From Bordetella pseudohinzii (GTDB lineage: Bacteria; Pseudomonadota; Gammaproteobacteria; Burkholderiales; Burkholderiaceae_B), in the NCBI RefSeq assembly GCF_000657795.2, contig NZ_JHEP02000001.1, positions 310,001-374,000 on the forward strand: a DNA stretch of 64,000 nucleotides, given 5' to 3'. The notes beneath the pieces were generated by a model. The model saw only the letters and a program-made list of their open reading frames with translations. It searched no databases and had not been told where the DNA came from. How positions within the stretch are numbered: position 1 is the first letter of the stretch; each line of letters opens with the position of its first letter. A program made the translations under genes and the position numbers. This document shows positions 4,245 through 58,123 of the stretch, piece by piece.

Positions 4245-4645
4245 GGCCAAGCCCCCCGGCGCCGACCCGCGCGCAAGACGCACTTGCGCGCTACATACCG
4301 CACGGACTCCAGATAAACGCGCGCCACCGACCCGCGCGCCAAGGCCTCATCGGCGCATGGCTGGCGTTTGGCAAGAAAGCTCTTGTACTGTCAAAACCCG
4401 CCAAGGTCCAGATCCCGGGCCGTGGTCACGCGCGCCGCGACGATCTCCGGCGTATCTTCCGGCAAGGGGCCCGGCGCGCAAGCTCGGCTTGCCCGCAACT
4501 CGTGTGCGTTATTATCTAAACACTACTATTTGTGTTCACGAAGCAAGCGCCATCCTGCCCTGCTTCGGCCAGCCAAAAGGCATGCCGCGGGCCGCGATAC
4601 GAGTCGCCAATCATTCCGCCAATCACCCTTTCGCGCACAACCACA
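4245..4645. promoter_or_regulatory. Divergent intergenic region between the toxin gene and the secreted-protein gene
   Basis: These 401 bases separate two divergent starts and hold no convincing gene. A local AT-rich patch (about 4506-4540, TTATTATCTAAACACTACT) stands out in GC-rich surroundings and is the likeliest promoter position for one or both genes. No operator could be identified. Confidence 0.4.
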
Positions 4646-5530: not shown

Positions 5531-5834
5531 GAGCGGTCAGGTCGGACGAGAAATGACGCGGAGCGCCGCCTCGCTCATCCCATCAGGGCCTCCAGCTCCT
5601 TGGGCGCCAAACGCGACAAGCTCCGCCTGCCGTCCGGCCGCGCGCCTCCAGGATCAGCATCCAAACCTTATCGGTTCCGCCGGCATCTTGTCGCGCACCC
5701 GCTCAATCGCGGCGACATCATCGTCAGAGCCATGCGTTGTCCAAGTTCCGCCAGGGCATCGCCCATACGGATACGCTTTTTCAGTTTCACCGCACCTGGC
5801 TCATCTCATTGAGCGCGGCTCAAGCCGAAAACAA

Positions 5835-5860
5835 AAGAGCCCGCGGTTACGCGGGCTCTT
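5835..5860 (-). terminator. Rho-independent terminator, minus strand (probably that of guaA)
   Basis: A perfect 11-bp stem AAGAGCCCGCG / CGCGGGCTCTT with a 4-nt loop. On the minus strand it is followed by TTTTGTTTTC, a good U-tract; on the plus strand there is none. It lies 46 bp downstream, on the minus strand, of the guaA-like stop codon at 5906. The natural reading is that this is the original guaA terminator left in place when DNA inserted into the end of guaA. Confidence 0.85.
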
Positions 5861-5905
5861 AGATGCTTCAATGCATTTTGGTGCCAGTCCATGTCGGACG
5901 CGGGA

Positions 5906-5920
5906 TCATTCCCACTCGAT
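5906..5920 (-). repeat. Duplicated guaA 3' end: candidate island attachment site
   Basis: On the minus strand the 15 bases read ATC GAG TGG GAA TGA, i.e. Ile-Glu-Trp-Glu-stop, the conserved C-terminus of GMP synthase (GuaA). The codons immediately upstream (Gly-Leu-Leu-Ile) are not GuaA-like, and no guaA body is present. Genomic islands are known to integrate at the 3' end of guaA and restore the gene at one end, leaving a short copy at the other. This copy sits next to an intact terminator, so it is read as the distal att site, with the island extending to higher coordinates. Confidence 0.65.
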
Positions 5921-5980
5921 TATCAACAGGCCACGCAAGCCCGCGTGGTTAAAGGGACTGGCCGTGATCGACATGGGGTC

Positions 5981-6000
5981 TTACCGTCGCTTTTACCGTC
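5981..6000. repeat. Pair of TTACCGTC direct repeats near the att site
   Basis: TTACCGTC occurs at 5981-5988 and again at 5993-6000, 12 bp apart, about 60 bp inside the presumed island end. Short tandem repeats at this distance from a core site are typical of arm-type integrase binding sites. That role is inference from position; no integrase gene is in the window. Confidence 0.35.
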
Positions 6001-6152
6001 ATCCGACAGGAGCTTTTCTTGACGTGGACGACAGAGGTTTGAGGGGCAACGCCGACTTCATATGCCAATCGGGTCAATCATACCAGGCAACTTTGTTTGC
6101 ACGCCTTGAAAAGGTGAGCATGTCGCTGTACTGAACCGAACTCAGGCTGTTT

Positions 6153-16306: not shown

Positions 16307-16987
16307 ATGAATCTCGCTCAAGCACAAATTGCCGTTCTCGCCGAACACCAGTACCAGGAACTCGAACTCTGGTACCCGCTCATGCGGTTGCGCGAGGCCG
16401 GCTGCAACGTCCTGGTCGTAGGCCCTTCCGATACCCAGGTCTACGGCAGCAAGCTGGGCTATCCCATCGTCGCCGATCTGGCCGCCGAGGAAGCCGATCC
16501 GGCAGATTTCGATGCCGTAATCGTCCCCGGCGGCTTTGCCCCCGAGGGTCTGCGGCGCAATCCCGCCATCGTCAGCCTGGTCAAGGGCATCCACGACCAG
16601 GGCGGGCTCGTCGCCGCCATCTGCCACGCCGGCTGGGTTCTCGCAACGGCCGGCATTGCCCGAGGCCGCAATCTGACATGCGTCTCGCTCATCAAGGACG
16701 ACGTCATCAACGCGGGCGCCAGCTACATCGATCAGCCTGTCGTACAGGACGGCAACATCATTACCTCGCGCCTGCCGGGCGATCTGCCCGAATTCGGCCG
16801 GGCCATCGTGGATTACCTCGTCACCCATCCGTCTACCCGCAGCAGCAACCGCCAACTGCAACCCAGCCGTTCGCGCGGCTTCGCCAGCGCGGCCTACGAA
16901 GCCCCCGCCAAGGTCGTCATGACCGCCCGCGGCAAGGCTTCGGCCAACTACATCATGACAGTCGTCTCCGAGGGAGACGGCAAATGA
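16307..16987 (+). CDS. DJ-1/PfpI-family protein with intact active site
   Basis: A 226-residue protein of the class-I glutamine-amidotransferase-like superfamily. The nucleophile elbow AAICHAGW has Cys followed by His; the upstream Glu occurs in PGGFAPEGLRR. Relatives act as glyoxalases, amidases, hydratases or proteases, so chemistry is not fixed. A roughly 40-residue C-terminal extension (NRQLQPSRSRGF onward) lies beyond the usual core. It ends in an ATGA overlap with the C45 gene, and follows the truncated paralogue by 27 bp. Confidence 0.88.
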   Translation: MNLAQAQIAVLAEHQYQELELWYPLMRLREAGCNVLVVGPSDTQVYGSKLGYPIVADLAAEEADPADFDAVIVPGGFAPEGLRRNPAIVSLVKGIHDQGGLVAAICHAGWVLATAGIARGRNLTCVSLIKDDVINAGASYIDQPVVQDGNIITSRLPGDLPEFGRAIVDYLVTHPSTRSSNRQLQPSRSRGFASAAYEAPAKVVMTARGKASANYIMTVVSEGDGK

Positions 16988-26740: not shown

Positions 26741-26986
26741 TCAAGTGTCCTTCAGCAGTACGCCCTTGCTCGCAGTGCCTCGCCGGAATCCCCGATCTCC
26801 TGCCATGAATGCCTCCAGCATATAGGGGATCAGCATCATGGCATCGACAGCCTCGCCATATGCCTGCGCGTGCAGCGCGGCGTAGCGGTCGAGGTCGGCT
26901 TTCAGGCTGGCCGGGCAAGCGAAGGTCAGCTTGACGCTCTCGGTCTTGGGCAGCGGCCCGAGCCGCAGCTTCTTGGCCGTGCTCAT
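26741..26986 (-). CDS. DUF2274-family protein, end of the trb operon
   Basis: An 81-residue protein with the family's pattern LRLGPLPKTESVKLTFACP followed by ASLKADLDRYAALHAQAYGE. It is regularly the last gene after trbI in Tn4371-type elements. The start overlaps the trbI stop as ATGA. It may be a ribbon-helix-helix DNA-binding protein, given the short size and SVKLTF strand. No function is established. Confidence 0.8.
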   Translation of the reverse strand: MSTAKKLRLGPLPKTESVKLTFACPASLKADLDRYAALHAQAYGEAVDAMMLIPYMLEAFMAGDRGFRRGTASKGVLLKDT

Positions 26987-28254
26987 TGCGAAGCTCCCCG
27001 GTTGAAGAACAGCGGCTGGTACGGCCGCAGCACAAGATCTCGATTAACGATGATCCGCAACGGCAGGCCCGGCCGCTCGGTCAGCGTCGGCTGGATGTTC
27101 ATGTTGCGTCGGGTGATCTCCTGGCCCACCTGATTGATGCTGTCTTGGGCGCTGTCACGCCCGGCGATGACGACGCGGTTGCCGTCCTGGCGGTTCTCCG
27201 GCGCGGCCAGCTCGGCACCCACGCCCAGCAGCGTCGTCAGCACAGCGCCCGCGACGATGCGCTTCCAGTGCCACTCCACGTCGTCTTCCAGACCCGAGTA
27301 GCCCGCAGGGTCTGTGCCCACAAGGTTGTCGAGCGTCAGCGAGGACGTGTCCGGCAGGATGACCCGGTTCCATACCACCTGTACGCGACTCTGCCCGTAG
27401 CTGACCTGGCTGTTGTAGCGCCCGAGGATGCGCGATCCCTGCGGGATCAGCAGGAACTTGCCCGTGGCCGTGTCAAAGACCGGCTCCGTCACCGTGGCGA
27501 TCACGTCGCCCGGCAAGTCCGACTTGATACCTGTCACCAGCGCTCCGGCGATCACCGTGCCCGCCATCACCTGATAAGGCGATGCCGGCAGCGCCAAGTT
27601 GCCTGAGTTGCGGGTTTCCGTAGCGCCGCCTTTCAGGAATGCCTCTTTCTGGTCTTGCCGGTTCTGCACGGCGGTCGCGTCGGCTGGCTGCGCCGCCGTC
27701 GAGGCCGGCCCGGCAGCGAGTGGGTCGAAGGCCGCGAGCGCGCTGGCAGCGTCAGGCGCCCCCGGCGCCGCCTGCGCCACCGTGACGGCGGCCTGGCCTT
27801 GGCCCCCCGAGCGGAAGAACACCGACGAAGCCGCCGCCGCATCAGCCTCCTTGCGCAAGGCGTCATTGGGATCGTGGCCGGGAGCCGCGTAAGCGGCCAC
27901 GGCCGGCTGCTGTGAGTTCACGATAGCCGGGCCAAGATCGCCCGGTAGTGGCGGCCCCAGCTCGGGCACCTGCGGCGGTAACTTCGAGTAGTCGGCCGGC
28001 AGGCTGTCCAGTCCTTCGGACTTCGAGACGCGATCGACGTTGTAAAGCTCAGTCTGCTCGTTGGCGCCGCGCCGCTGCGGTTGCAGCGACCAGATCGTGG
28101 CCCCCAGCACGGCGATCGACAGGCTGCCGACGAGGATGGCCAGTGTGCGCCGGTTCAGGCGCGTGACCGGGCGCGGCTGGGCGCGCAGCGCCACCGCCTC
28201 CGGCGCAACCTTGCCCGCTTGCGGCGCAAGGTCAGGGGAATCGTCCTGGCTCAT
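26983..28254 (-). CDS. trbI: TrbI, mating-pair-formation protein (VirB10-like)
   Basis: A 423-residue protein: a short cytoplasmic N-terminus, one membrane anchor (LAILVGSLSIAVLGATIW, about residues 45-62), a Pro/Ala-rich periplasmic linker, and the VirB10 beta-barrel domain (GSRILGRYNSQVSYGQSRVQ; GAELAAPENRQDGNRVVIAG, shown to 20). The start at 28254 is 2 bp from the trbG stop. VirB10-type proteins span inner and outer membrane in the conjugation channel. Confidence 0.93.
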   Translation of the reverse strand: MSQDDSPDLAPQAGKVAPEAVALRAQPRPVTRLNRRTLAILVGSLSIAVLGATIWSLQPQRRGANEQTELYNVDRVSKSEGLDSLPADYSKLPPQVPELGPPLPGDLGPAIVNSQQPAVAAYAAPGHDPNDALRKEADAAAASSVFFRSGGQGQAAVTVAQAAPGAPDAASALAAFDPLAAGPASTAAQPADATAVQNRQDQKEAFLKGGATETRNSGNLALPASPYQVMAGTVIAGALVTGIKSDLPGDVIATVTEPVFDTATGKFLLIPQGSRILGRYNSQVSYGQSRVQVVWNRVILPDTSSLTLDNLVGTDPAGYSGLEDDVEWHWKRIVAGAVLTTLLGVGAELAAPENRQDGNRVVIAGRDSAQDSINQVGQEITRRNMNIQPTLTERPGLPLRIIVNRDLVLRPYQPLFFNRGASQ

Positions 28255-28256
28255 GG

Positions 28257-29258
28257 TCAGTTCCTCCGCGTGCCATCCGTTCGCTCGATCCGCACCACGT
28301 CGCCCTTGTCGCCACCCAGGCGCAGCTCGGCCGCGCCGAACAGGCGATCGACGATGTAGTACGGCGCACGGAAACGGTAGTTCACCAGTTGCCCGCCGCC
28401 CTGCGCGCCAATCACGAACAGCGGCGGCAGCTCGCCTTGGGCGATGCCGGCGGGGAACTGGATATAGACTTTCTGCCCGTCGTCGAACGCGCGCAGCGGC
28501 TTCCACGGCGGATTGCTGCCGCTGACCGCGTAGCGGAAGCGCAGGTTCTCCAGCGCCAGCCCAGTATCGACCGGCGCGGCGGCGCTGGCCGCCTGCGCTT
28601 GGCGCTGCAAAGCCAGTATCCGGTCGCGCGGATACTCCCAGGACACCGACGCCATCCACGTCTTCTCCGTCGAAGCCAGTTCCAGCAGGTACGTCCTGCG
28701 GCTGGTGGTGATGACGAGATTGGTCTTGAGTCCCGAGCGGATCGGCTTGACCAGCACGTTCACGCGCAGCTCGGCACCGCTGCCGCTGGACGTGTCGCCC
28801 ACGATCCAGCGCACGGTATCTCCGGCGGCGACCGTCACCAGCTCCTCGCCCGGCTGGAGCGAAACCACGGTCACGCGGCCCACGGCCGCATAGACCTGAT
28901 ACAGCGCGCCATCGGTAAAGGGCCACACTTGAATCGCGTTGACGTATCCCTCGCGCGTGGGTGCGACGCGCGCATCGGCATTGGCCCGTGAGACGCGCAC
29001 CTTCTCGGCGGCTGGCTCCGGCGTGGGCTTGGCGTCCTCGGCTTCGGGCAACGGCTTCAACTGCGCCGGCATCGGCAGCACCTCGGGCACGGCCACCACC
29101 TCCACCGGCACCGGCGGCTCTGGCAGCGGCTGGGCCTGCACCGGCTCATCGAGCGAGATGGTTGGCGGTGGCTTGCCCTGAGAGGCGCAGCCCGTGAACA
29201 GAACAGTCGATGCAAGCAGGATCACCGGCAAAGCGGCTTTGCGGAAAAGATCATTCAT
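28257..29258 (-). CDS. trbG: TrbG, outer-membrane channel component (VirB9-like)
   Basis: A 333-residue protein with a lipoprotein signal (ASTVLFTGC lipobox), a Pro/Glu-rich linker, and the CagX/VirB9 domain: VNAIQVWPFTDGALYQVYAA, VNVLVKPIRSGLKTNLVITT (each 20 or fewer), and a C-terminal YIVDRLFGAAELRLG. Start ATG 29258 overlaps the trbF stop by 4 bp. It works with TrbI to form the outer-membrane part of the secretion channel. Confidence 0.92.
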   Translation of the reverse strand: MNDLFRKAALPVILLASTVLFTGCASQGKPPPTISLDEPVQAQPLPEPPVPVEVVAVPEVLPMPAQLKPLPEAEDAKPTPEPAAEKVRVSRANADARVAPTREGYVNAIQVWPFTDGALYQVYAAVGRVTVVSLQPGEELVTVAAGDTVRWIVGDTSSGSGAELRVNVLVKPIRSGLKTNLVITTSRRTYLLELASTEKTWMASVSWEYPRDRILALQRQAQAASAAAPVDTGLALENLRFRYAVSGSNPPWKPLRAFDDGQKVYIQFPAGIAQGELPPLFVIGAQGGGQLVNYRFRAPYYIVDRLFGAAELRLGGDKGDVVRIERTDGTRRN

Positions 29259-29983: not shown

Positions 29984-31363
29984 CTAGTCGTCGGAGCCGC
30001 GCAGGCTCGGGCCTTGCCCCGAGCCGCCACCGTCGCCGCCGCGCAGCGTGTGCGCGGCGGTGGTCGCGGCGTGGGTGAGTTGCTGGCGGCGATGCAGCCG
30101 CTTGGCCCAGGCGGGTTGTTCCGGCTTCTGTGCAGCGACGCCGCCTGCGGGGGCTTCTCCTGCGGAGGCTTGGCCGGTTGACGCGCCAGCGTCGGCCGTC
30201 GAGCCATTCCAGCCAGCACGGAACGGAGCGGCCATCCGCTGCCCGGCAGCGGAAGCACGCGACGCAACCGCGCGTCCGGCCGACTGCGCGCCGGTCTTGG
30301 CGACATTTCCCAGGCCCGCCATCGCGCCCTTTGCGCCGCCGCCAGCGGCGGCGGAACCGGCCTGAAACGCCGACTTCGCACTGCTGGCCGCCGACGTGGC
30401 GGCGCGCGCGCCGCTACCGGCCAGCTTGGCGGCAGCCGGGGCCATGCGCGCGCCAGCAGCCACGGCGCCACCCACGCCCGTCGCAGCGGCGCCGATGGCG
30501 ACCGCCGTGCCGGCAGCGCCGACAGCAGCACCGGCCATTGCGCCCGCGCCGAGCTGCGGCGCACCGGACACGAGGCCCGTGGCGATGCCGGGGCCGAAGA
30601 TCCCGAGCGCCAGCAAGGTGAGCGAGGCCAGCATGATGACCAGCGCGTGGTCGATGGACGGCTCATCGGGATGAACTTGGAACTCGGCGAACAGGCCCGA
30701 GCCGATGCCGACGATCACGGCCAGCACCAGTACCTTGACGCCGGACGACACCACGTTGCCCAGCACCTTCTCGGCGAGGAACGCGGTCTTGTTCCAGAGC
30801 GCGAATGGCACCAGCACGAATCCGGCAAGCGTGGTCAGCTTGAACTCGATCAGCGTGATGAACAGTTGGATCGCCAGTACGAAGAAGCACAAGACCACGA
30901 CCAGCCATGCGAGGAACATCACCACGATGGGGTCGAGGTTCACGAACACTTCGGGAAAGCCCGCCATCTCGCCGATCTGCTCCAGAATCGGCGCCCCGGC
31001 GTCGATGCCGGTTTTCGCTAGCCGGCCCGGTTGCAAGAAGTTCTCCATCGTGATGGCTGAGCCGGTGGAGGTGATGCCCAATCCCGCAAATGAGCGGAAC
31101 ACGATGCTGGCCAGCCAGTTGAAGTTATTGATGATGTAGGCGAAGGCACCGACGTAGAGCACCTTGCGCAGCAGCTTGGCGATCACGTCCTCGCCCTGGC
31201 CGGTGGCATGGCTCATGGCCCAATACAGGCCGGCGATCGTCATGTCGATGACGATCAGCGTGGCCGTGAGGAACGCCACTTCGCCCCGCAGCAGCCCGAA
31301 ACCCGAGTCGATGTAAGCGGCAAAGGTGTTGAGGAACTGGTCGATGATGGTCACGTCATTCAT
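29984..31363 (-). CDS. trbL: TrbL, polytopic membrane protein (VirB6-like)
   Basis: A 459-residue membrane protein. The N-terminal third has several hydrophobic segments (TATLIVIDMTIAGLYWAM, then VLYVGAFAYIINNFNWLAS and more). The C-terminal part is a long Ala/Gly-rich soluble tail (residues about 270-459), normal for TrbL. The ATG at 31363 overlaps the stop of the lipoprotein gene. TrbL/VirB6 proteins form the inner-membrane passage for the substrate. Confidence 0.92.
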   Translation of the reverse strand: MNDVTIIDQFLNTFAAYIDSGFGLLRGEVAFLTATLIVIDMTIAGLYWAMSHATGQGEDVIAKLLRKVLYVGAFAYIINNFNWLASIVFRSFAGLGITSTGSAITMENFLQPGRLAKTGIDAGAPILEQIGEMAGFPEVFVNLDPIVVMFLAWLVVVLCFFVLAIQLFITLIEFKLTTLAGFVLVPFALWNKTAFLAEKVLGNVVSSGVKVLVLAVIVGIGSGLFAEFQVHPDEPSIDHALVIMLASLTLLALGIFGPGIATGLVSGAPQLGAGAMAGAAVGAAGTAVAIGAAATGVGGAVAAGARMAPAAAKLAGSGARAATSAASSAKSAFQAGSAAAGGGAKGAMAGLGNVAKTGAQSAGRAVASRASAAGQRMAAPFRAGWNGSTADAGASTGQASAGEAPAGGVAAQKPEQPAWAKRLHRRQQLTHAATTAAHTLRGGDGGGSGQGPSLRGSDD

Positions 31364-31680
31364 GGCGTGTCCTCCGGTTCGGCGGGAACGGCCGGCGCCA
31401 TGCCATCGGCCGGCTCCTCGAAGCTCGGCGGGATCGGCGGCAGGTCGGCCAGCGTCTGGTATTCGTCCGGCCCGGCCTCGCCGGAAAAGAAGCGCCGCCG
31501 GAAGGCTTCGGCGGCGGCAAGGCAAGCGTCCTCGCCCGTGGCCTGCCGGTCGATCGCGCATTGCGCGCGCAATGTCTTCAGCCGCACGGGATCAGCAGCC
31601 AGGGCATCGGCAAGGTTGTCGGCCGGCTGCTTGCCGCAAGCGGCCAGCAGCGCGGCACACAGGACGAGGGCGCATCGCAT
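31360..31680 (-). CDS. trbK: TrbK-like entry-exclusion lipoprotein
   Basis: A 106-residue lipoprotein with signal MRCALVLCAALLAAC (lipobox LLAAC). The mature domain carries a conserved Cys pair (RAQCAIDR and DACLAAAEAFRRRFF) shared with the protein at 39305-39583, and a Pro/Glu-rich tail. Position between trbJ and trbL is where trbK-type exclusion genes lie in this ICE family. Such proteins block redundant conjugation into a cell already carrying the element. Confidence 0.78.
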   Translation of the reverse strand: MRCALVLCAALLAACGKQPADNLADALAADPVRLKTLRAQCAIDRQATGEDACLAAAEAFRRRFFSGEAGPDEYQTLADLPPIPPSFEEPADGMAPAVPAEPEDTP

Positions 31681-31692
31681 GGCGGCCTCCCG

Positions 31693-32436
31693 TCAGTTGC
31701 CGTAGAAGTTCACAGACTGCGGCGTGTACGGCGTGCCTTCGCCCAGGAAGCGCCGTCGCACCTCGCGGGCGCGCTCGGTGGCCGCCGCCTGCCTCGCCAG
31801 CTCCACCGACGCCGCCCGGTCTTGCGTGATCTGGAGCCGCTGCGACTGGATGGATTGCTTGGCCTGCAAGGCCAGCAACTGATTCATGGCCTGCATCGCT
31901 TGCAGCGCGCCCTCGGCCGACTGGCTCTTGCCGACGAGATCGGCCAGCACGCTTTCGTCTTCGCCCAGGTTCTGCGACACCTGCGCCTGCATCTGCATGG
32001 TGGTCTGCAAGCCGTTGAGCGTGTTCCGCCAACGCTCCTGCGCGTCGCGGTACATCTGGTCGCCGCTGACGGTGGCGGCGTACTGCTCGGGATACAGGCG
32101 CGCGAACTCCCGATCGAGGTTCGTCACGTCATAGGCCAAGCCTCGGGCCTGCGCGATCAGCCGCTCGGTCGTCGCCAGGTTGGCGCGCAACTGGTTCACC
32201 ACGTTGGACGGCAGGCTGGTGAGATTCCGCGCCTGGTTCATGAGCATCCGTGCTTCGTTCTGGAGCTGGTTGATCTGGTTGTTGATCTGTTCCAGGGTGC
32301 GCACGGCTGTAAGCGTGTTCTGCACGAAGTTCGACGGATCGAACACAGTGATGGCTGCCGCCGGCTGTGCGAGCATCAGCGACACAGACAGCGCGGCAGC
32401 GAGCGAGGCGGACAGCAAACGGGGCTTGATCTTCAT
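31693..32436 (-). CDS. trbJ: TrbJ, conjugal transfer protein (VirB5-like)
   Basis: A 247-residue exported protein. The signal peptide ends near QPAAA. A long helical/coiled-coil region (residues about 30-215) is rich in Gln/Asn/Leu (TLEQINNQINQLQNEARMLM). The closing FLGEGTPYTPQSVNFYG motif is typical. The start overlaps the trbE stop by 4 bp. VirB5-type proteins sit at the pilus tip. Confidence 0.9.
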   Translation of the reverse strand: MKIKPRLLSASLAAALSVSLMLAQPAAAITVFDPSNFVQNTLTAVRTLEQINNQINQLQNEARMLMNQARNLTSLPSNVVNQLRANLATTERLIAQARGLAYDVTNLDREFARLYPEQYAATVSGDQMYRDAQERWRNTLNGLQTTMQMQAQVSQNLGEDESVLADLVGKSQSAEGALQAMQAMNQLLALQAKQSIQSQRLQITQDRAASVELARQAAATERAREVRRRFLGEGTPYTPQSVNFYGN

Positions 32437-34883
32437 GGTGAAACCTCCAATGGTTGGGGGTTGAGGAACGAAGCAGCCGCCGGTGCGGACGGCAGCAGGT
32501 CAGCGGCCCATTCAAGGCCGCGATGGCGCAGCCACGCGCCGGCGAAGCCGGGTGCGCCGGCCTGCGTCAGCACGCGGTCGATGTCGCGTTGGTCTTGCGG
32601 TGTGGATGCGCCCGCGAAGGCGAGCGCGGCTGACCCCAGGTCGAGGTCGAACAGGCGATTTCCGAGGCGCGATTGGTAGTAGTAGTCGCGCTTGGGCTGC
32701 GCAGCGGCGACGATTTCGATCTGACGCCTGTTGAGGCCGAAGCCCTCGTAGATCGTGCGAATCTGCGGCTCGATGGCCTGCGGGTTAGGCAAGAAAATCC
32801 GACTCGCGCAGCTCTCGATGATCGCGGGCGCGATGCTCGAATCCTTGATGTCGGCGAGGCTCTGCGTGGCGAAGATGACGCTGACGTTCTTCTTGCGCAG
32901 GGTCTTGAGCCACTGGCGGATACGCGCGGCAAACACCGGGTCGTCGAGGAACAGCCACGCTTCATCGAGGATCAGCAGCGTAGGCGCCCCGTCGAAGCGT
33001 TCATCGAAACGCGCAAAGAGGTAATGCAGCACGGCCATGACGGCGGCCTTGCTGTGCATCAGCTCCTCCATCTCGAAGCACTGCACGTCAGCCATGCCCA
33101 GCCGGTCGTGGTCGGCGTCCAGCAGCTTGCCGTGGGCGCCACCTAGCACATAGGGGGACAGCGCCTGCCGCAGCGTGTTCGATTGCAGCAGCACTGAAAG
33201 TCCCGTCATCGTGCGCTGCTCCACCGGCGCACCGGCGAGACTTCCCAGCGCCGACCAGATAGCCGCCTTCTCGTCGGGGTCGACCGCCACGCCTTCGTGC
33301 AGCAAGCGGCCTTCGATCCATTCGGCGGCCCAGGTGCGGTAGCCCTCACGGTCGATGCGCGCGAGTGGCTGGAAGGCGATTTCGCCATCCGTGCCCAGGT
33401 CGTAGTGTTCGCCGCCCTGGCCGAGGATGGCGGCCCGCATGGAGCGGCCCATGTCGAAGGCGAAGATGCGCGAGCCGCGATAGCGGCGAAATTGCATCGC
33501 CAGCGTGGCGAGCAAGACCGACTTGCCCATGCCAGTCGGCCCCGCGACCAGCGTGTGGCCCACGTCGCCGATGTGCGTCACCAGCCGGAACGGCGTGGCG
33601 CCATCGGTGCGCGTGACGATCAGCGGCGGGCCGTCCAGGTGCTCATTCTTCTCCGGCCCGGCCCATACCGCCGACAACGGCATCATGTGCGCCAGGTTCA
33701 GCGTCGAGACGATGGGCTGACGCACGTTGGCGTATGCGTTGCCCGGAATGGACGAAAGCCACGCATCCACGGCGTTGAGCGTTTCGGGGATGGTCACGAA
33801 ACCTCGGCCCTGGATAACACGCTCCACCATGCGCAGCTTCTCGTCTGCGACGGCGGCGTCCTCGTCCATGACGGTGACGGTCGCAGTCAGATAGCCGAAG
33901 GCGACTTGATCGCTGCCCAGCTCCTGCAAGGCGGCGTCGGCGTCGGCGGCCTTGTTGTTGGCGTCGGTATCGACCAGCGGGCTTTCCTGCTGGAAGATCG
34001 TTTCGCGCAGCAGCGCGATGACGTTCTTGCGCTTGGCGAACCACTGGCGGCGCAGGCGTGAGAGTTCTTTTTCCGCCTCTGCTTTATCGAGGCAGAGAAA
34101 GCGCGTGCTCCAGCGGTACGCAAAACCGAGGCGGTTGAGGTCGTCCAGAATTCCCGGCCAGGTCGAGGTCGGGAAGCCCCGCACCGACACTACCCGCAGG
34201 TGCTGATCGCCCAGCATGGGCGCCAGGCCGCCGACCAGCGCGGAATCGGTCAGCAGCGCGTCGATGTGGAACGGCACTTCGGGCACGCCCACGCGATAGC
34301 ACCGCGTCGAGATGGTCGCGTGCAGGTAGGTCAGCGTCTGCGCGTCATCGAGCCAGTCAATTTCCGGCATCACGCCGTCGAGCAGGTCAAAGACACGATC
34401 TGTTTCCGCGACGAAGGTTCGCAGCCGCTCGCGCCAGTCCACGCCATTCGTCGGCGTGTTCTCGTAGAGCATCTTGGCTGCACGGGCGCGGGATTCTTCC
34501 GGCGGCAGGTAAAGCAGCGTCAGGTGATAGCCGCTCTCGAAGTGACTACCCGATTCCTCGAAAGCGGCCCGGCGTTCTTCCTCCACCAGCCACGAAAGCG
34601 GTTCGGGAAACTCCGAGTGCGGATAATCGGCCGCAGGCCGGCGCTCGGCTTCGATGAATAACGCCCAGCCCGATCCCATGCGGCGCAGCGCGTTGTTCAA
34701 CCTCGCCGACGTGGCGATCAGCTCGCCTTGCGTCGCGCTGTCGAGGTCAGGCCCGCGAAACTTGGCCGTGCGTTGGAAACTGCCGTCCTTGTTCAAGACG
34801 ACGCCCGGCGCGACCAGCCCGGCCCAGGGCAGCCAGTCGGCAAGCAAGGCCGGGCGCTGGCGGTATTCGGCGAGGTTCAGCAT
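32433..34883 (-). CDS. trbE: TrbE, conjugation ATPase (VirB4-like)
   Basis: An 816-residue ATPase with Walker A AGPTGMGKSVLL (about residue 450) and Walker B PTLLILDEAWLFLDD (about 640), followed by the KTLRKKNVSVIFATQSLADI segment. The N-terminal CagE/VirB4 domain (GPDLDSATQGELI onward) is complete. VirB4 ATPases power pilus assembly and substrate handling at the inner membrane. It lies 15 bp after trbD and overlaps trbJ. Confidence 0.94.
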   Translation of the reverse strand: MLNLAEYRQRPALLADWLPWAGLVAPGVVLNKDGSFQRTAKFRGPDLDSATQGELIATSARLNNALRRMGSGWALFIEAERRPAADYPHSEFPEPLSWLVEEERRAAFEESGSHFESGYHLTLLYLPPEESRARAAKMLYENTPTNGVDWRERLRTFVAETDRVFDLLDGVMPEIDWLDDAQTLTYLHATISTRCYRVGVPEVPFHIDALLTDSALVGGLAPMLGDQHLRVVSVRGFPTSTWPGILDDLNRLGFAYRWSTRFLCLDKAEAEKELSRLRRQWFAKRKNVIALLRETIFQQESPLVDTDANNKAADADAALQELGSDQVAFGYLTATVTVMDEDAAVADEKLRMVERVIQGRGFVTIPETLNAVDAWLSSIPGNAYANVRQPIVSTLNLAHMMPLSAVWAGPEKNEHLDGPPLIVTRTDGATPFRLVTHIGDVGHTLVAGPTGMGKSVLLATLAMQFRRYRGSRIFAFDMGRSMRAAILGQGGEHYDLGTDGEIAFQPLARIDREGYRTWAAEWIEGRLLHEGVAVDPDEKAAIWSALGSLAGAPVEQRTMTGLSVLLQSNTLRQALSPYVLGGAHGKLLDADHDRLGMADVQCFEMEELMHSKAAVMAVLHYLFARFDERFDGAPTLLILDEAWLFLDDPVFAARIRQWLKTLRKKNVSVIFATQSLADIKDSSIAPAIIESCASRIFLPNPQAIEPQIRTIYEGFGLNRRQIEIVAAAQPKRDYYYQSRLGNRLFDLDLGSAALAFAGASTPQDQRDIDRVLTQAGAPGFAGAWLRHRGLEWAADLLPSAPAAASFLNPQPLEVSP

Positions 34884-36600: not shown

Positions 36601-37061
36601 GACGAACGCTCCTGCGCTTGCGCGGCTGCCGCCGCGTCTTCCATCCGCATTGGGTCGGGATGCAGTTCCTCCACCACGTCGCGCACCAGGCTCCGGCCCC
36701 GTAGCAGGTGACGGCCCAACTGTTCAACGAACTGCTCGAACCGCGCCTTGCCCTGGGCGCGTGCGGCCTCTTGGTGCGCCTCGGGGATTGGTGTGCTAAC
36801 CGTGAGGTAGTAGCGAACGAACAGCGCCAGCGTCTCGATCTGGATGTTCTGGTCGCGCTCCATGCGCTCGGCCTGGCGCGACAGACGATCAAGCCGCTTG
36901 GCTATGGCGGCCTCGCGCTGGTCGGCGGCATCGGGCGACAGCCACGATGCGAGCGCCGCCGCGACGATGGATGACTTGGACACGCCTTTCTTGGCGGCAA
37001 GCTCGTCGAGCCGCTTGGCGTGCTCGGGCTGGATAAAGAGGTTCAGGCGATAGTGGCTCAT
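36597..37061 (-). CDS. CopG-like ribbon-helix-helix protein between traG and trbB
   Basis: A 154-residue protein whose first 45 residues match the ribbon-helix-helix pattern ([19 protein letters not shown], then [18 protein letters not shown]). The rest is helical. Its place between traG and trbB is fixed in Tn4371-like ICEs. It is probably a DNA-binding transcriptional regulator of the transfer operon or a relaxosome accessory. Overlaps on both sides place it in the same transcript. Confidence 0.82.
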
Positions 37062-39067
37062 AGCTCGATTCCGTCGTTGGGGTCGAGGGAAGCCAGCCGA
37101 GCCGTGCGCTGCATGGCTGGATCGAGCTGGCGAGGAAGCGGAAGCGGCAGGTCGTCGTCATCATCGAGCAGCCCAAGGTCGGCCGCGGGAGCGGCCAGCT
37201 CGGGGTCGTAGGCGAAGGTTTCAGATAGCTCGGACTGGCGGCGCGGGCCGCCGTCGTCGGCCGTACCCAAGTTCTCCAAGCCATCGGCGGATGCCGTGGC
37301 TGGTGCGGCAGGCACGGCGGGAATCGCCAGCCCGCTCCAGTCGTCGGCGCGTGCCGGCGGCGCGTCGGCATACTGCCCGTCCGCCAGCGCGGGCGGCGGC
37401 AGAACGCGACGCTTGAAATTGGCGTCCGCGTAGTAGCGCAGCTTCTTCGCCTTGATCGGCGCTACGCTGGACACCATCACCACGGCCTCGTCGGGCGGAA
37501 GCTGCATGACTTCGCCCGGCGTCAGCAGCGGGCGCGCGGTTTCCTGGCGCGACACCATCAGGTGGCCCAGCCACGGCGCGAGCCGGTGGCCCGCGTAGTT
37601 GCGCTGGGCGCGCAGCTCGGTGGCCGTACCCAGCGTCTCGGAAATCCGCTTGGCGGTGCGCTCGTCGTTCGTTGCGAACGTCACGCGCACATGGCAGTTG
37701 TCGAGGATGGAGTGGTTCTGCCCATACGCCTTGTCGATCTGGTTGAGCGACTGCGCGATGAGGAAGCTGCGGATGCCGTAACCCGCCATGAAGGCCAGCG
37801 CCGTCTCGAAGAAGTCGAGGCGCCCCAGCGCCGGGAACTCGTCGAGCATCAGCAGCAGCTTGTGGCGGCGCTCGATGCCGTCGGAGCCGTCGAGCGATTC
37901 GGTGAGGCGCCGGCCGATCTGGTTGAGGATCAGGCGAATGAGCGGCTTCGTCCGCGATATGTCCGAAGGCGGCACCACCAGATACAGCGATACCGAATGC
38001 TCGGCCGCGATCAGGTCGGCGATGCGCCAGTCACAGCGCGAGGTGACTTCGGCCACCGTGGGATCGCGGTACAGGCCGAGGAACGACATGGCCGTGGATA
38101 GCACGCCCGAGCGTTCGTTGTCGCTCTTGTTGAGGACTTCACGCGCCGCCGATGCGACGACCGGATGCGGCCCATCGCCGAGGTGCGGCGTAGTCATCAT
38201 CCGGTGCAAGGTCAGCTCGAAGGGGCTGGCCGGGTCGGACAGGAAGTTGGCGACGCCGCGCAGCGTCTTGTCTTCGCCAGCGTAGAGGACATGCAGGATG
38301 GCCCCGACCAGCAGCGCGTGGCTGGTCTTCTCCCAATGGTTGCGCTTCTCCAGCGCGCCTTCAGGATCGACCAGAATGTCCGCAATATTCTGAACGTCGC
38401 GCACTTCATGCGCGCCGCGCCGCACCTCCAGTAGCGGGTTGTAGGCCGCCGACTTCGCATCGGTCGGGTTGAACAGCAGGCAGTGGCTGAACCGGCTGCG
38501 CCACCCGGCGGTGATGCTCCAGTTCTCGCCCTTGATGTCATGAATGACGGCGGATGCGGGCCACGAAAGAAGCGTTGGAATGACAAGGCCAACGCCCTTG
38601 CCAGAGCGCGTGGGAGCGAAGGTCAGGACGTGTTCGGGGCCTTCGTGGCGCAGGTATTGGCGATCATGCTGGCCGAGGAATACGCCTGCCGGTTGCGACA
38701 GGCCCGCCTTGCGAATGTCCTGCGCATTCGCCCAGCGGGCCGATCCGTATGTCGTGACCAGGCGCGACTGTCGCGAGCGGCAGATGGACATGCCGATAGC
38801 GACGACCACCGCCAGTAGCCCACTGCCGCCCGCGATGGTGCCGCCGGAATCGAACACGCGCGGCGCGTAAGCATCGAAAACGAACCACCACTCAAATAGC
38901 TTCCACGGGTGGTAAATCGGCGTACCAAGAAAATCGAACCAGGGCGAGCCAAGGCGTACTTGATAGCCAAGGGCCGCTGCCGTCCATTGTGTGGCACCCC
39001 ACACGCCGGCGATCACGATGCCGAATACCACGGCGATCTGACCGAACAACACATTCGTCCCTTGCAT
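37058..39067 (-). CDS. traG: TraG, type IV coupling protein (VirD4-like)
   Basis: A 669-residue coupling protein. Two N-terminal membrane segments (about residues 10-30 and 60-105) precede Walker A FAPTRSGKGVGLVIPTLLSW and Walker B HKLLLMLDEFPALGRLDFF, with LIAQSLNQIDKAYG. The C-terminal region (about 550-669) is acidic and variable. TraG links the relaxase-DNA complex to the Trb channel. It is the first gene of the traG-trb transcript; 237 bp separate it from the lipoprotein gene upstream. Confidence 0.94.
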   Translation of the reverse strand: MQGTNVLFGQIAVVFGIVIAGVWGATQWTAAALGYQVRLGSPWFDFLGTPIYHPWKLFEWWFVFDAYAPRVFDSGGTIAGGSGLLAVVVAIGMSICRSRQSRLVTTYGSARWANAQDIRKAGLSQPAGVFLGQHDRQYLRHEGPEHVLTFAPTRSGKGVGLVIPTLLSWPASAVIHDIKGENWSITAGWRSRFSHCLLFNPTDAKSAAYNPLLEVRRGAHEVRDVQNIADILVDPEGALEKRNHWEKTSHALLVGAILHVLYAGEDKTLRGVANFLSDPASPFELTLHRMMTTPHLGDGPHPVVASAAREVLNKSDNERSGVLSTAMSFLGLYRDPTVAEVTSRCDWRIADLIAAEHSVSLYLVVPPSDISRTKPLIRLILNQIGRRLTESLDGSDGIERRHKLLLMLDEFPALGRLDFFETALAFMAGYGIRSFLIAQSLNQIDKAYGQNHSILDNCHVRVTFATNDERTAKRISETLGTATELRAQRNYAGHRLAPWLGHLMVSRQETARPLLTPGEVMQLPPDEAVVMVSSVAPIKAKKLRYYADANFKRRVLPPPALADGQYADAPPARADDWSGLAIPAVPAAPATASADGLENLGTADDGGPRRQSELSETFAYDPELAAPAADLGLLDDDDDLPLPLPRQLDPAMQRTARLASLDPNDGIEL

Positions 39068-56134: not shown

Positions 56135-58123
56135 CTATACCCCGCGGGAACGCCCAACATCCCATGAGACTTCGCTGTGGAACACCGTGGCGGCAATTTT
56201 CTGCCCCAACTGCTGCTCAATCACGGGCTTCCACGGTACGAGGCTGAACCCCATTCCGTCATCGAGCATCGCGTAGCGCCCGCAGGCGAGCATCACGCTG
56301 CGCCGGTAGATTCCGACCACGCGCTGACCGTCGGCCACGGGGCGATGCACCAGGCCTGTATCGGCGGTAATGTCCTTCGCAGCCTCCATCAGTTCCCGGT
56401 TGCGCAGCATCGCCAGCAGGTTGCGGGGGAGGATCACGCGCTGTCCGCGCCGCTCGGCCAGCCCTTGTGCGGCAAGGAAGTCGGCGCGCTGTTGCATGGC
56501 CTGCTTGGCATCACCCCCAAAGCCTAGGTCGCCCAGCCCTCGGCCGCCGCCGATCAGTTGCTGGTCGAGCCAGGTCGCGCCGATGACGCGGGCCTGCCGC
56601 TCGATGGGCAGGTGCGATTTCAGCTCTACGGCCACGCTACCAAGGCGCTGTGCGTCGTACCGGCGGCCACATTCAGCCAAGTCGTCCGGCACCTTCCATA
56701 AGCCATCGGCCACGCGCTCCACGATGCCGGCTCGGCGCAGCGCTTCCAGCCGGCGGACGTGGGCCGCGACGACTTCTTGCGGGTCGCGGCCGGGCCTGGT
56801 CCGGCCCTGCTCGATCGCCAGGTGATGATCGGTGCGGTACAGGCCATCGCTCGCCAGCGTGGCGATGTTCTTGTCGGCGGCGCGGACATCCGCGGAACCG
56901 CGCACCTCCACCACCGATCCGGTGGGATAGTTCGCCAGTTCGTCGCGGGCGTTCAGCGCAACGTAGTGGGCCTTGCCGTCGGTGCCGTCGATGACTAGAT
57001 AGCCGCGGTCGTACAGCTCGTCGGCCAGCCCCTTTGCAGCCACGCGGCCGACGATGGTGCGGCCGTCATCGCCCGGTTCGAAAACCGCCAGCTCGCGCGG
57101 CTGGCCGCTCATGGCCCGCTGCATGGTTCGGATGATGTCGCCACGCTCGCCCAGGGCGCGCAAGGTCTTCTCGGCATAGGCATGAATAGTCCAAGTGCCG
57201 GGCTGCGTTTCGTCGGCCAGCCCCATGCGCTGCAAGCGTTGCAGCCGGCCGACCAGCAACAGGCGCTGGCGTTGCAGCCGGGTTTCGTTGAAGCGCTCGA
57301 TCTGCACCCGACCACCCTCGCCGGCCTCACGTTGCAGCGTGCGGTCGAGGCTCGTCCAGCGCTCTTGCTCCACTTCGCGCTGCAAGGTCTGCTGGATCTC
57401 CAGTTCGGTGCGCGGCCCCAGCCATTCAGTCGCCAGTTCGGCGGCCCGATGGCGGAAGCCGTGGGCGATGTAGTCGCCGGCGATGATGAGGTCTTTTCCG
57501 GTATCGTCCTTGCCCCGCACGATCAGGTGCGTGTGCGGGTTGTCGGTGTTCCAGTGGTCGACCGCCACCCAATCGAGCCGCGTTCCTAGGTCGGCTTCCA
57601 TGCGGTTCATCAGGTGCCGGGTGTAGGTGCGCATGTCGTCCAGCTCGGCGCCGTCTTCAGGTGAGACGATGAGGCGGAAATGGTGCCGGTCGTCGACGCA
57701 GCGCTCTTTGAAGGCGTAGAGGTCGGCTTCATCCGCCTGCGGCCCGTAGGCCCGGCCCGGTTCGCCATCGCGGCCCGCGCCGTCGCGCTCGATGTAGCGC
57801 AGGTGCTTGGCGAGCGACTGCGGGCTGGCATTGCGTTGATTGACCAGCAGGGTCTTGATGGTCACGCGCCGCGACATGGGCGTGAGCTTCGCCCCGGCGA
57901 AGCGCGCTGCCGTATGGCCGCGCCCAAGCCGTGAGCTGGGTCGCTGGCCAGCGCGCTGGCCCTGGCCGCCGGACGCGGCGGAATGGCGCACCGCCGACTT
58001 GCCGCCGCCGGCCTTTCCAGCCTGCTTGAGCACCTTGGAAACGAAGCTCTGGCCCTGGCCCTTGCCACGGTTCTTCGGGGCGCTCGGACGCACCCGGAAA
58101 TCGTCGTCGCGGCGATCGGTCAT
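56135..58123 (-). CDS. rlxS: Relaxase of the ICE (TraI/RlxS-like, DUF3363)
   Basis: A 662-residue relaxase. The N-terminal nicking domain has an early Tyr region (QSLAKHLRYIERDG) and the metal-binding His cluster WNTDNPHTHLIVRGK. A long DUF3363 C-terminal region follows. It cleaves one strand at oriT and leads it to the coupling protein TraG. The upstream region 58124-58571 is the likely oriT. The 3' end is close to the cargo MFS gene, showing cargo was inserted between rlxS and traR. Confidence 0.92.
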   Translation of the reverse strand: MTDRRDDDFRVRPSAPKNRGKGQGQSFVSKVLKQAGKAGGGKSAVRHSAASGGQGQRAGQRPSSRLGRGHTAARFAGAKLTPMSRRVTIKTLLVNQRNASPQSLAKHLRYIERDGAGRDGEPGRAYGPQADEADLYAFKERCVDDRHHFRLIVSPEDGAELDDMRTYTRHLMNRMEADLGTRLDWVAVDHWNTDNPHTHLIVRGKDDTGKDLIIAGDYIAHGFRHRAAELATEWLGPRTELEIQQTLQREVEQERWTSLDRTLQREAGEGGRVQIERFNETRLQRQRLLLVGRLQRLQRMGLADETQPGTWTIHAYAEKTLRALGERGDIIRTMQRAMSGQPRELAVFEPGDDGRTIVGRVAAKGLADELYDRGYLVIDGTDGKAHYVALNARDELANYPTGSVVEVRGSADVRAADKNIATLASDGLYRTDHHLAIEQGRTRPGRDPQEVVAAHVRRLEALRRAGIVERVADGLWKVPDDLAECGRRYDAQRLGSVAVELKSHLPIERQARVIGATWLDQQLIGGGRGLGDLGFGGDAKQAMQQRADFLAAQGLAERRGQRVILPRNLLAMLRNRELMEAAKDITADTGLVHRPVADGQRVVGIYRRSVMLACGRYAMLDDGMGFSLVPWKPVIEQQLGQKIAATVFHSEVSWDVGRSRGV

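Follow-up and report, generated by a model that had tools for sequence, protein, structure and literature searches.

The 15 bp at positions 5906 to 5920 of the window, i.e., of the whole 64,000-nucleotide stretch of DNA analyzed, appear to be the far attachment site of a 70.5-kb ICE that inserted in GAGTGGGA at the 3' end of guaA, and we consider this mechanism as a whole to be about 90% probable. This reading fixes the borders of a catabolic and conjugative element, termed element A, and assigns the right part of the window to mobile DNA. The terminator beside the guaA scar is not necessarily native.

Two guaA ends on the same strand

The window corresponds to C1:310001-374000 of a draft genome (G000) with 48 contigs. 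Its minus strand reads ATCGAGTGGGAATGA from 5920 to 5906, i.e., ATC GAG TGG GAA TGA (Ile-Glu-Trp-Glu-stop), as at the C terminus of GuaA, and the codons directly before this site, GCGTGGCCTGTTGATA, are not those of GuaA; the guaA-type stop remnant described in an earlier note on this DNA is thus real. A 17-nt pattern derived from the displaced site and searched with up to 2 mismatches matched the window only at the site itself. A single copy of guaA was found in the draft genome; it is intact (530 amino acids) and lies on the minus strand at C1:386416-388008, 12.4 kb to the right of the window. The degenerate guaA-end pattern ATHGARTGGGARTRR had two matches in the 48 contigs, one at window positions 5906 to 5920 and one at the end of the real guaA; they are 70.5 kb apart and share the minus strand.

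The real guaA end, ATT GAG TGG GAG TGA, is equal to the displaced copy in 13 of 15 bases. The identical run comprises exactly the 8 bp GAGTGGGA (window positions 5910 to 5917, minus strand), with a mismatch at once on either side: ATT-GAGTGGGA-GTGA at guaA versus ATC-GAGTGGGA-ATGA in the displaced copy. guaA islands are reported to have GAGTGGGA as their core (PMC9376610, PMC7775301). The two differences are expected to flank a crossover core, yet they keep the repeat short. Since the direct repeat is no longer than GAGTGGGA, it falls below the 15 to 30 bases that the earlier note had expected to recur in the full replicon; the second site on the same strand was found as anticipated, but the identity extends over 8 bp. 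In these 15 bp we see a duplicate of the attachment core together with the stop codon of guaA from before the insertion of element A; they are not a fragment lost from today's guaA.

Integrase, conjugation genes, and cargo of element A

Judged from its sequence, the DNA from window position 5921 to C1:386430 is a single ICE of 70,510 bp, a class-A guaA ICE, because two guaA-end sites with the GAGTGGGA core enclose an integrase and tra/trb genes and because its far end recurs elsewhere. Within the window it covers positions 5921 to 64000, and it runs on to C1:386430, beside its integrase and the intact guaA. Both the integration at the guaA 3' end and the assignment of the catabolic and conjugative genes right of 5921 to an insertion whose other end is at guaA were thus borne out. 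A number of features correspond to those by which guaA-associated ICEs and genomic islands are recognized. (i) guaA remains an open frame with the insertion at its 3' end, and the GAGTGGGA core is present at both ends of the element. (ii) Beside guaA there is a tyrosine integrase with arm, central, and catalytic domains (PF00589, PF13356, PF22022); it was assigned by these Pfam domains, and the label "P4-type" for guaA-island integrases is taken from the literature. Its homology-based start is at C1:386114, about 300 nt past the guaA stop, and the gene is codirectional with guaA. (iii) alpA (PF05930; L003:9546-9977, i.e., C1:383546-383977) is located about 0.9 kb from the integrase on the opposite strand. 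(iv) IncP-like tra/trb genes indicate an ICE rather than an IME. On the minus strand of the window these are TrbI (26983 to 28926; PF03743), TrbL (29984 to 31561; PF04610), a TrbE/VirB4-like ATPase (32433 to 34883; PF03135 and PF19044), and an IncP-type TraG coupling protein (37058 to 39067; PF02534, and NF010450 over its cutoff).

A relaxase-like protein (RlxS/DUF3363) is encoded at 56135 to 58123 (minus strand; PF11843), with a score of 646.7 bits for NF041267 that is under the cutoff of 850, and a ParB-like protein is also found inside the element. The cargo includes an ABC uptake system, an amidohydrolase, a phosphotriesterase-family protein, a thiamine-diphosphate enzyme, and a siderophore receptor; an IS3-type transposase and similar cargo may be later additions. 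In backbone and integrase, element A may resemble Tn4371-type ICEs. Near guaA, it also contains a gene for a caspase-domain protein that is flanked on each side by a gene for a TIR-domain protein, identified as ThsB-like by PADLOC and by Pfam (L003:5694-8013, i.e., C1:379694-382013); this is a putative Thoeris-type defense set with a caspase effector. ARAGORN reported a 95-nt tRNA-Cys at window positions 16346 to 16440 (minus strand), which overlaps an ORF in element A and is possibly spurious.

It is improbable that the stretch between the two guaA-end sites arose by accretion of several insertions at guaA rather than as one element. Among 60 relatives searched, 6 (G002, G013, G018, G019, G020, and G046) have a displaced guaA end close to guaA on the same strand; the stretch itself contains, at C1:331954, a plus-strand site with 3 mismatches in 15; and the array in G633 (L229 plus L250) looks like a mirror image of the present one. 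Against this, no third minus-strand guaA-end site with up to 3 of 15 mismatches was found between the two, and the class-A arm and the class-A far end are each represented once, as they would be in a single unit.

The far end of element A in other genomes and plasmids

To locate the border, window positions 5906 to 6130 were used as a query against 399 genomes of the order and a plasmid collection. Matches were obtained in four of the genomes, our own included, and in two plasmid records, both from Salmonella. We inspected five copies outside our own genome (two in G772 and one each in G039, G613, and one of the Salmonella plasmids) with the query extended to 5835, through the terminator. The alignments span 92 to 148 bases, so that the last 80 to 130 bases of the element (within 5921 to 6130, minus strand) recur, and they stop at query position 220, 221, or 225, i.e., window position 5911, 5910, or 5906. 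All five thus come to an end within the attachment site, short of the spacer and the terminator, which places the border of element A within 5906 to 5920. In all five copies, the element ends with a motif near CCTGTTGATR, after which come ATNGANTGGG and then differing DNA. At its guaA, G039 carries an integrase of class A with 95% identity, and one of the two guaA-end sites of G039 is at the far end, on another contig.

These data bear on the possibility that 5906 to 5920 are merely 15 unrelated bases beside an ordinary terminator. The match is short, as chance would allow, but the genome has just two such sites, the second of which is guaA itself, the far end recurs in five places with a stop in the attachment site each time, and an integrase of the right type is at guaA. 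With no occurrence in 100 shuffles of the window and none genome-wide with the reversed control, a chance match was rejected as practically negligible in probability.

DNA to the left of the junction

The reading of the left side as plain chromosome was not borne out. The stretch C1:266119-296203 shares four main blocks, about 26 kb in all and 81 to 84% identical, with C1:336750-380025 (26750 to 70025 in window numbering); it is a second ICE backbone in the same contig and orientation as element A. A second, distant tyrosine integrase (23% identity) is encoded at C1:304126-305355. It is adjoined by a gene on the minus strand for a 2,789-amino-acid SpvB/TcdB-like protein (L004:9915-18284, i.e., C1:305914-314283, reaching window position 4283). 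No convincing direct repeat was found beside the second integrase, the best one having 13 bases, and the left-hand ICE could not be delimited on its outer side within C1:136000-315905; the sole minus-strand guaA-end-like site in that range with up to 3 of 15 mismatches, C1:282298, is inside the left-hand ICE. Element A ends at position 5906, but with this backbone and the second integrase further left, the foreign DNA may extend beyond it.

Between the second integrase and the junction, left of the terminator and outside element A, a decayed stretch at 5647 to 5795 resembles toxin-antitoxin loci, with 70 to 75% identity to plasmid stretches among the matches listed, some of which are annotated as Arc-type DNA-binding protein or VapC. 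The left-hand gene P0004 was found in only 1 of 41 genomes, its own, when relatives were searched. The segment C1:263-268k, a homologue of which adjoins guaA in G003, was considered as a native neighbor of guaA and was rejected: the gene concerned is located in the part of the left-hand stretch that matches the trb region of element A, and its copy in element A is TrbI by Pfam. This homology implies that the guaA neighborhood of G003 is itself mobile DNA.

A terminator in the arm of one class of guaA elements

The hairpin at 5860 to 5835 on the minus strand has a perfect 11-bp stem, with a loop of 4 nt, and is followed by a T-rich tail; it starts 60 nt from where the displaced guaA end begins and 45 nt past the displaced stop. 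The terminator scan of the window retrieved two terminator-like sites, versus 0.6 expected from shuffles, and a 101-nt RNA at this site folds with -41.7 kcal/mol (z = -3.72), a value equaled by none of 200 shuffles. The existence of a perfect terminator downstream of the remnant, as noted earlier, is in agreement with these results. That it is guaA's own chromosomal terminator did not find such support: the spacer and terminator together (5828 to 5905, minus strand) match the integrase-proximal arm of another group of guaA elements, with 43.3 bits and an E value of 1.9e-12 in an nhmmer search of 125 sequences, and the similarity ends just past the terminator. We refer to the group of element A's integrase as class A and to the other one as class B, both groupings being coined in this analysis. 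The spacer alone scored 19.6 bits against the class-B arm model (E = 8.8e-5). Characteristic of class-B arms are repeats of the CTGGCA type and, at a distance of about 60 nt past the guaA end, a terminator; our stretch has an offset of 60 and a single exact CTGGCA. A class-B integrase, which would be expected about 320 nt from the guaA end, was not detected in the draft genome.

In relatives, sequences like 5905 to 5828 directly follow guaA. In six of these genomes (G002, G004, G009, G013, G018, and G019), this stretch leads, after about 320 nt, to another integrase that is about 60% identical to that of element A. The direct junction of guaA with the terminator region that the earlier note had expected in genomes lacking the island does therefore occur, but in these six genomes the stretch of stop, spacer, and terminator belongs to a different guaA element, of which it forms the integrase-proximal arm. 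The class-B arm can be aligned right up to its integrase, including those of a Pseudomonas (L144) and of L119.

A comparison of distinct arms showed that a terminator-like hairpin with its start 50 to 69 nt from the guaA end is present in 24 of 26 class-B arms versus 2 of 22 class-A arms, with a Fisher P value of 3.3e-9 that overstates independence because the arms are related. The exceptions are the class-B arms L218 and L235, which lack the hairpin, and the class-A arms L239 and L240, which have it and whose integrases are also rather near class B (65%). The comparison comprised 75 rows: the 26 class-B arms, the 22 class-A arms (our own element and the displaced L250 included), and 27 that belong to neither class. 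The latter were 13 duplicate arms; 5 with fewer than 280 aligned residues (L036, with terminator; L020, L170, L103, and L104, without); 5 with intermediate or distant integrases (L013 and L167, without terminator; L241 and L242, with a terminator at 59 to 61; L077, with a hairpin at 157); and 4 without a guaA end upstream (L168, L169, L171, and L172). L105, L026, L076, and L099 match the class-A arm model and are outside the 75 rows. G633 contains, on two contigs, a class-A integrase behind a displaced guaA end (L250, C57) and a class-B integrase after the GuaA-coding end (L229, C22). A further guaA-adjacent arm type, around ATCAATGGCATTTTTCATGG and partly terminator-like, was observed in L010, L039, L049, L176, and L191.

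Stem covariation was analyzed in 22 of the 25 distinct class-B fragments plus our own, with L164, L165, and L226 omitted as near-identical to others. Four of nine pairs were altered on both sides, which 2 of 500 shuffles reached, and the covariation score was above those of all 500; the count of further pair types, reached by 150 of 500 shuffles, was not clearly above them. When the partner was shifted by 1 to 3 columns, just 0 to 2 pairs were altered on both sides.

The difference between the classes bears on whether the entered gene, or the element's own integrase, is shielded from read-through. Most class-B elements have a terminator-like hairpin between guaA and the integrase. In element A, no terminator-like site was found between the guaA stop and the integrase start (C1:386050-386450), so guaA transcription may run into the codirectional integrase gene if nothing else stops it.

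Origin of the displaced terminator

The displaced spacer and terminator probably remain from the arm of a class-B element that occupied guaA earlier, as suggested by the fact that class-B integrases carry such a terminator as part of their arm. The rival explanation, that 5828 to 5905 are the native region downstream of guaA in this lineage, of which class-B elements took a copy, is doubtful and finds arguments in several data. G005, G017, G047, and G048 have a similar stretch after guaA without a detected class-A or class-B integrase, and weaker arm matches at guaA without a detected integrase nearby (L072, L115, L123, L137, L140, and L089) may represent a native terminator. In our own genome, moreover, neither a class-B integrase nor a remnant was detected, including the 55.9 kb left of the junction, where a search for a decayed class-B integrase returned only the distant second integrase with 23% identity, and the similarity ends right past the terminator. 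At guaA, the arm match extends to the hairpin end or beyond in L034, L050, L194, L195, L015, and L115, where neither a class-A nor a class-B integrase was detected (about 1.5 kb only being in view for L015, L194, and L195). In L072 and L051 the arm match stops within the hairpin, L139 ends with its contig, and weaker or partial matches at guaA are L123, L130, L137, L140, L089, L085, L030, and L028.

Three observations speak against a native origin. (i) guaA was detected in 12 of the 14 genomes of the same genus, of which four have a class-B arm with integrase, one a class-B arm with a broken integrase, one an arm alone, and one a class-A arm; in the other five (G003, G006, G007, G010, and G011), the sequence after guaA did not match the arm model at an E value of 1. 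From this mixed occurrence it follows that the arm is no constant native feature. (ii) Across different hosts, among them L144, a Pseudomonas, and L119, a distant betaproteobacterium, the arm follows the class of the integrase. (iii) In G017 and G047, the similarity continues past the terminator into further arm repeats.

Proposed history of the locus

The following order of events would account for these data. Before element A, guaA would have ended in GAA TGA, followed by the spacer and terminator; an older class-B element at guaA would have decayed, with its arm remaining. Element A would then have entered between guaA and the remaining arm by tyrosine-integrase recombination within GAGTGGGA, and the mismatches directly flanking GAGTGGGA fit a crossover within the core. 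guaA would have kept its own ATT, and the integrase-side arm of element A would have supplied the new last codon and stop (GAG TGA). At the far junction, ATC would stem from element A, and the last bases of GAA TGA would go back to the earlier guaA end. The old GAA TGA, spacer, and terminator would thereby have been shifted by 70.5 kb, to window positions 5911 to 5828.

In more general terms, we lean slightly toward the view that one branch of guaA integrases carries a structurally conserved terminator in its arm, so that insertion would provide guaA with a new stop and a terminator and insulate the integrase; such an arm would outlast the decay of its element, and later elements of the other branch, mostly terminator-less, would insert between guaA and the arm and displace it. 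guaA sites are repeatedly reoccupied, and islands therefore stack.

Comparison with known guaA elements

guaA as an insertion hotspot, the GAGTGGGA core, and catabolic or conjugative content at guaA are already known from four reports (PMC9376610, PMC7775301, PMC10386936, PMC7419628). Element A itself belongs to a known type of guaA ICE, and the fresh point is the terminator-bearing arm: a search of titles and abstract beginnings gave no mention of a terminator in the arms of guaA elements. In one relative, G018, the displaced guaA end (L044, position 14003) continues as GGGAGTGACGGGCACTGGC, which has been named the putative terIS of CR2 (PMC9376610).

The guaA islands and ICEs of Song et al. 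(2012), as cited in PMC7775301 and PMC7419628, share with element A the same guaA 3' end, a P4-type integrase, AlpA, GAGTGGGA, and an intact guaA; they differ in that they carry other cargo and in that element A adjoins an older terminator-bearing stretch. ICERspD18B, for which transfer into Escherichia coli guaA has been shown, has the same site and core, conjugation genes, and alpA beside the integrase, but it is 28.5 kb long and its cargo confers antibiotic and arsenic resistance (PMC7775301). ICE6775 resembles element A in its RK2-like conjugation genes, P4-like integrase, and guaA site, where a 12-bp duplication, GAGTGGGAGTGA, contains GAGTGGGA; its cargo, in contrast, is for mercury resistance (PMC7419628). 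GIsul2 has the same GAGTGGGA core at guaA and an extra internal att site, and its integrase-dependent recombination has been shown; unlike element A, it is thought to be mobilizable and not self-transmissible, and it carries resistance cargo (PMC9376610). The 76-kb beta-myrcene region of Pseudomonas sp. M1 is located directly 3' of guaA, with an integrase on one flank, Tra/Trb on the other, and catabolic cargo, and differs from element A in the nature of that cargo and in its host (PMC10386936).
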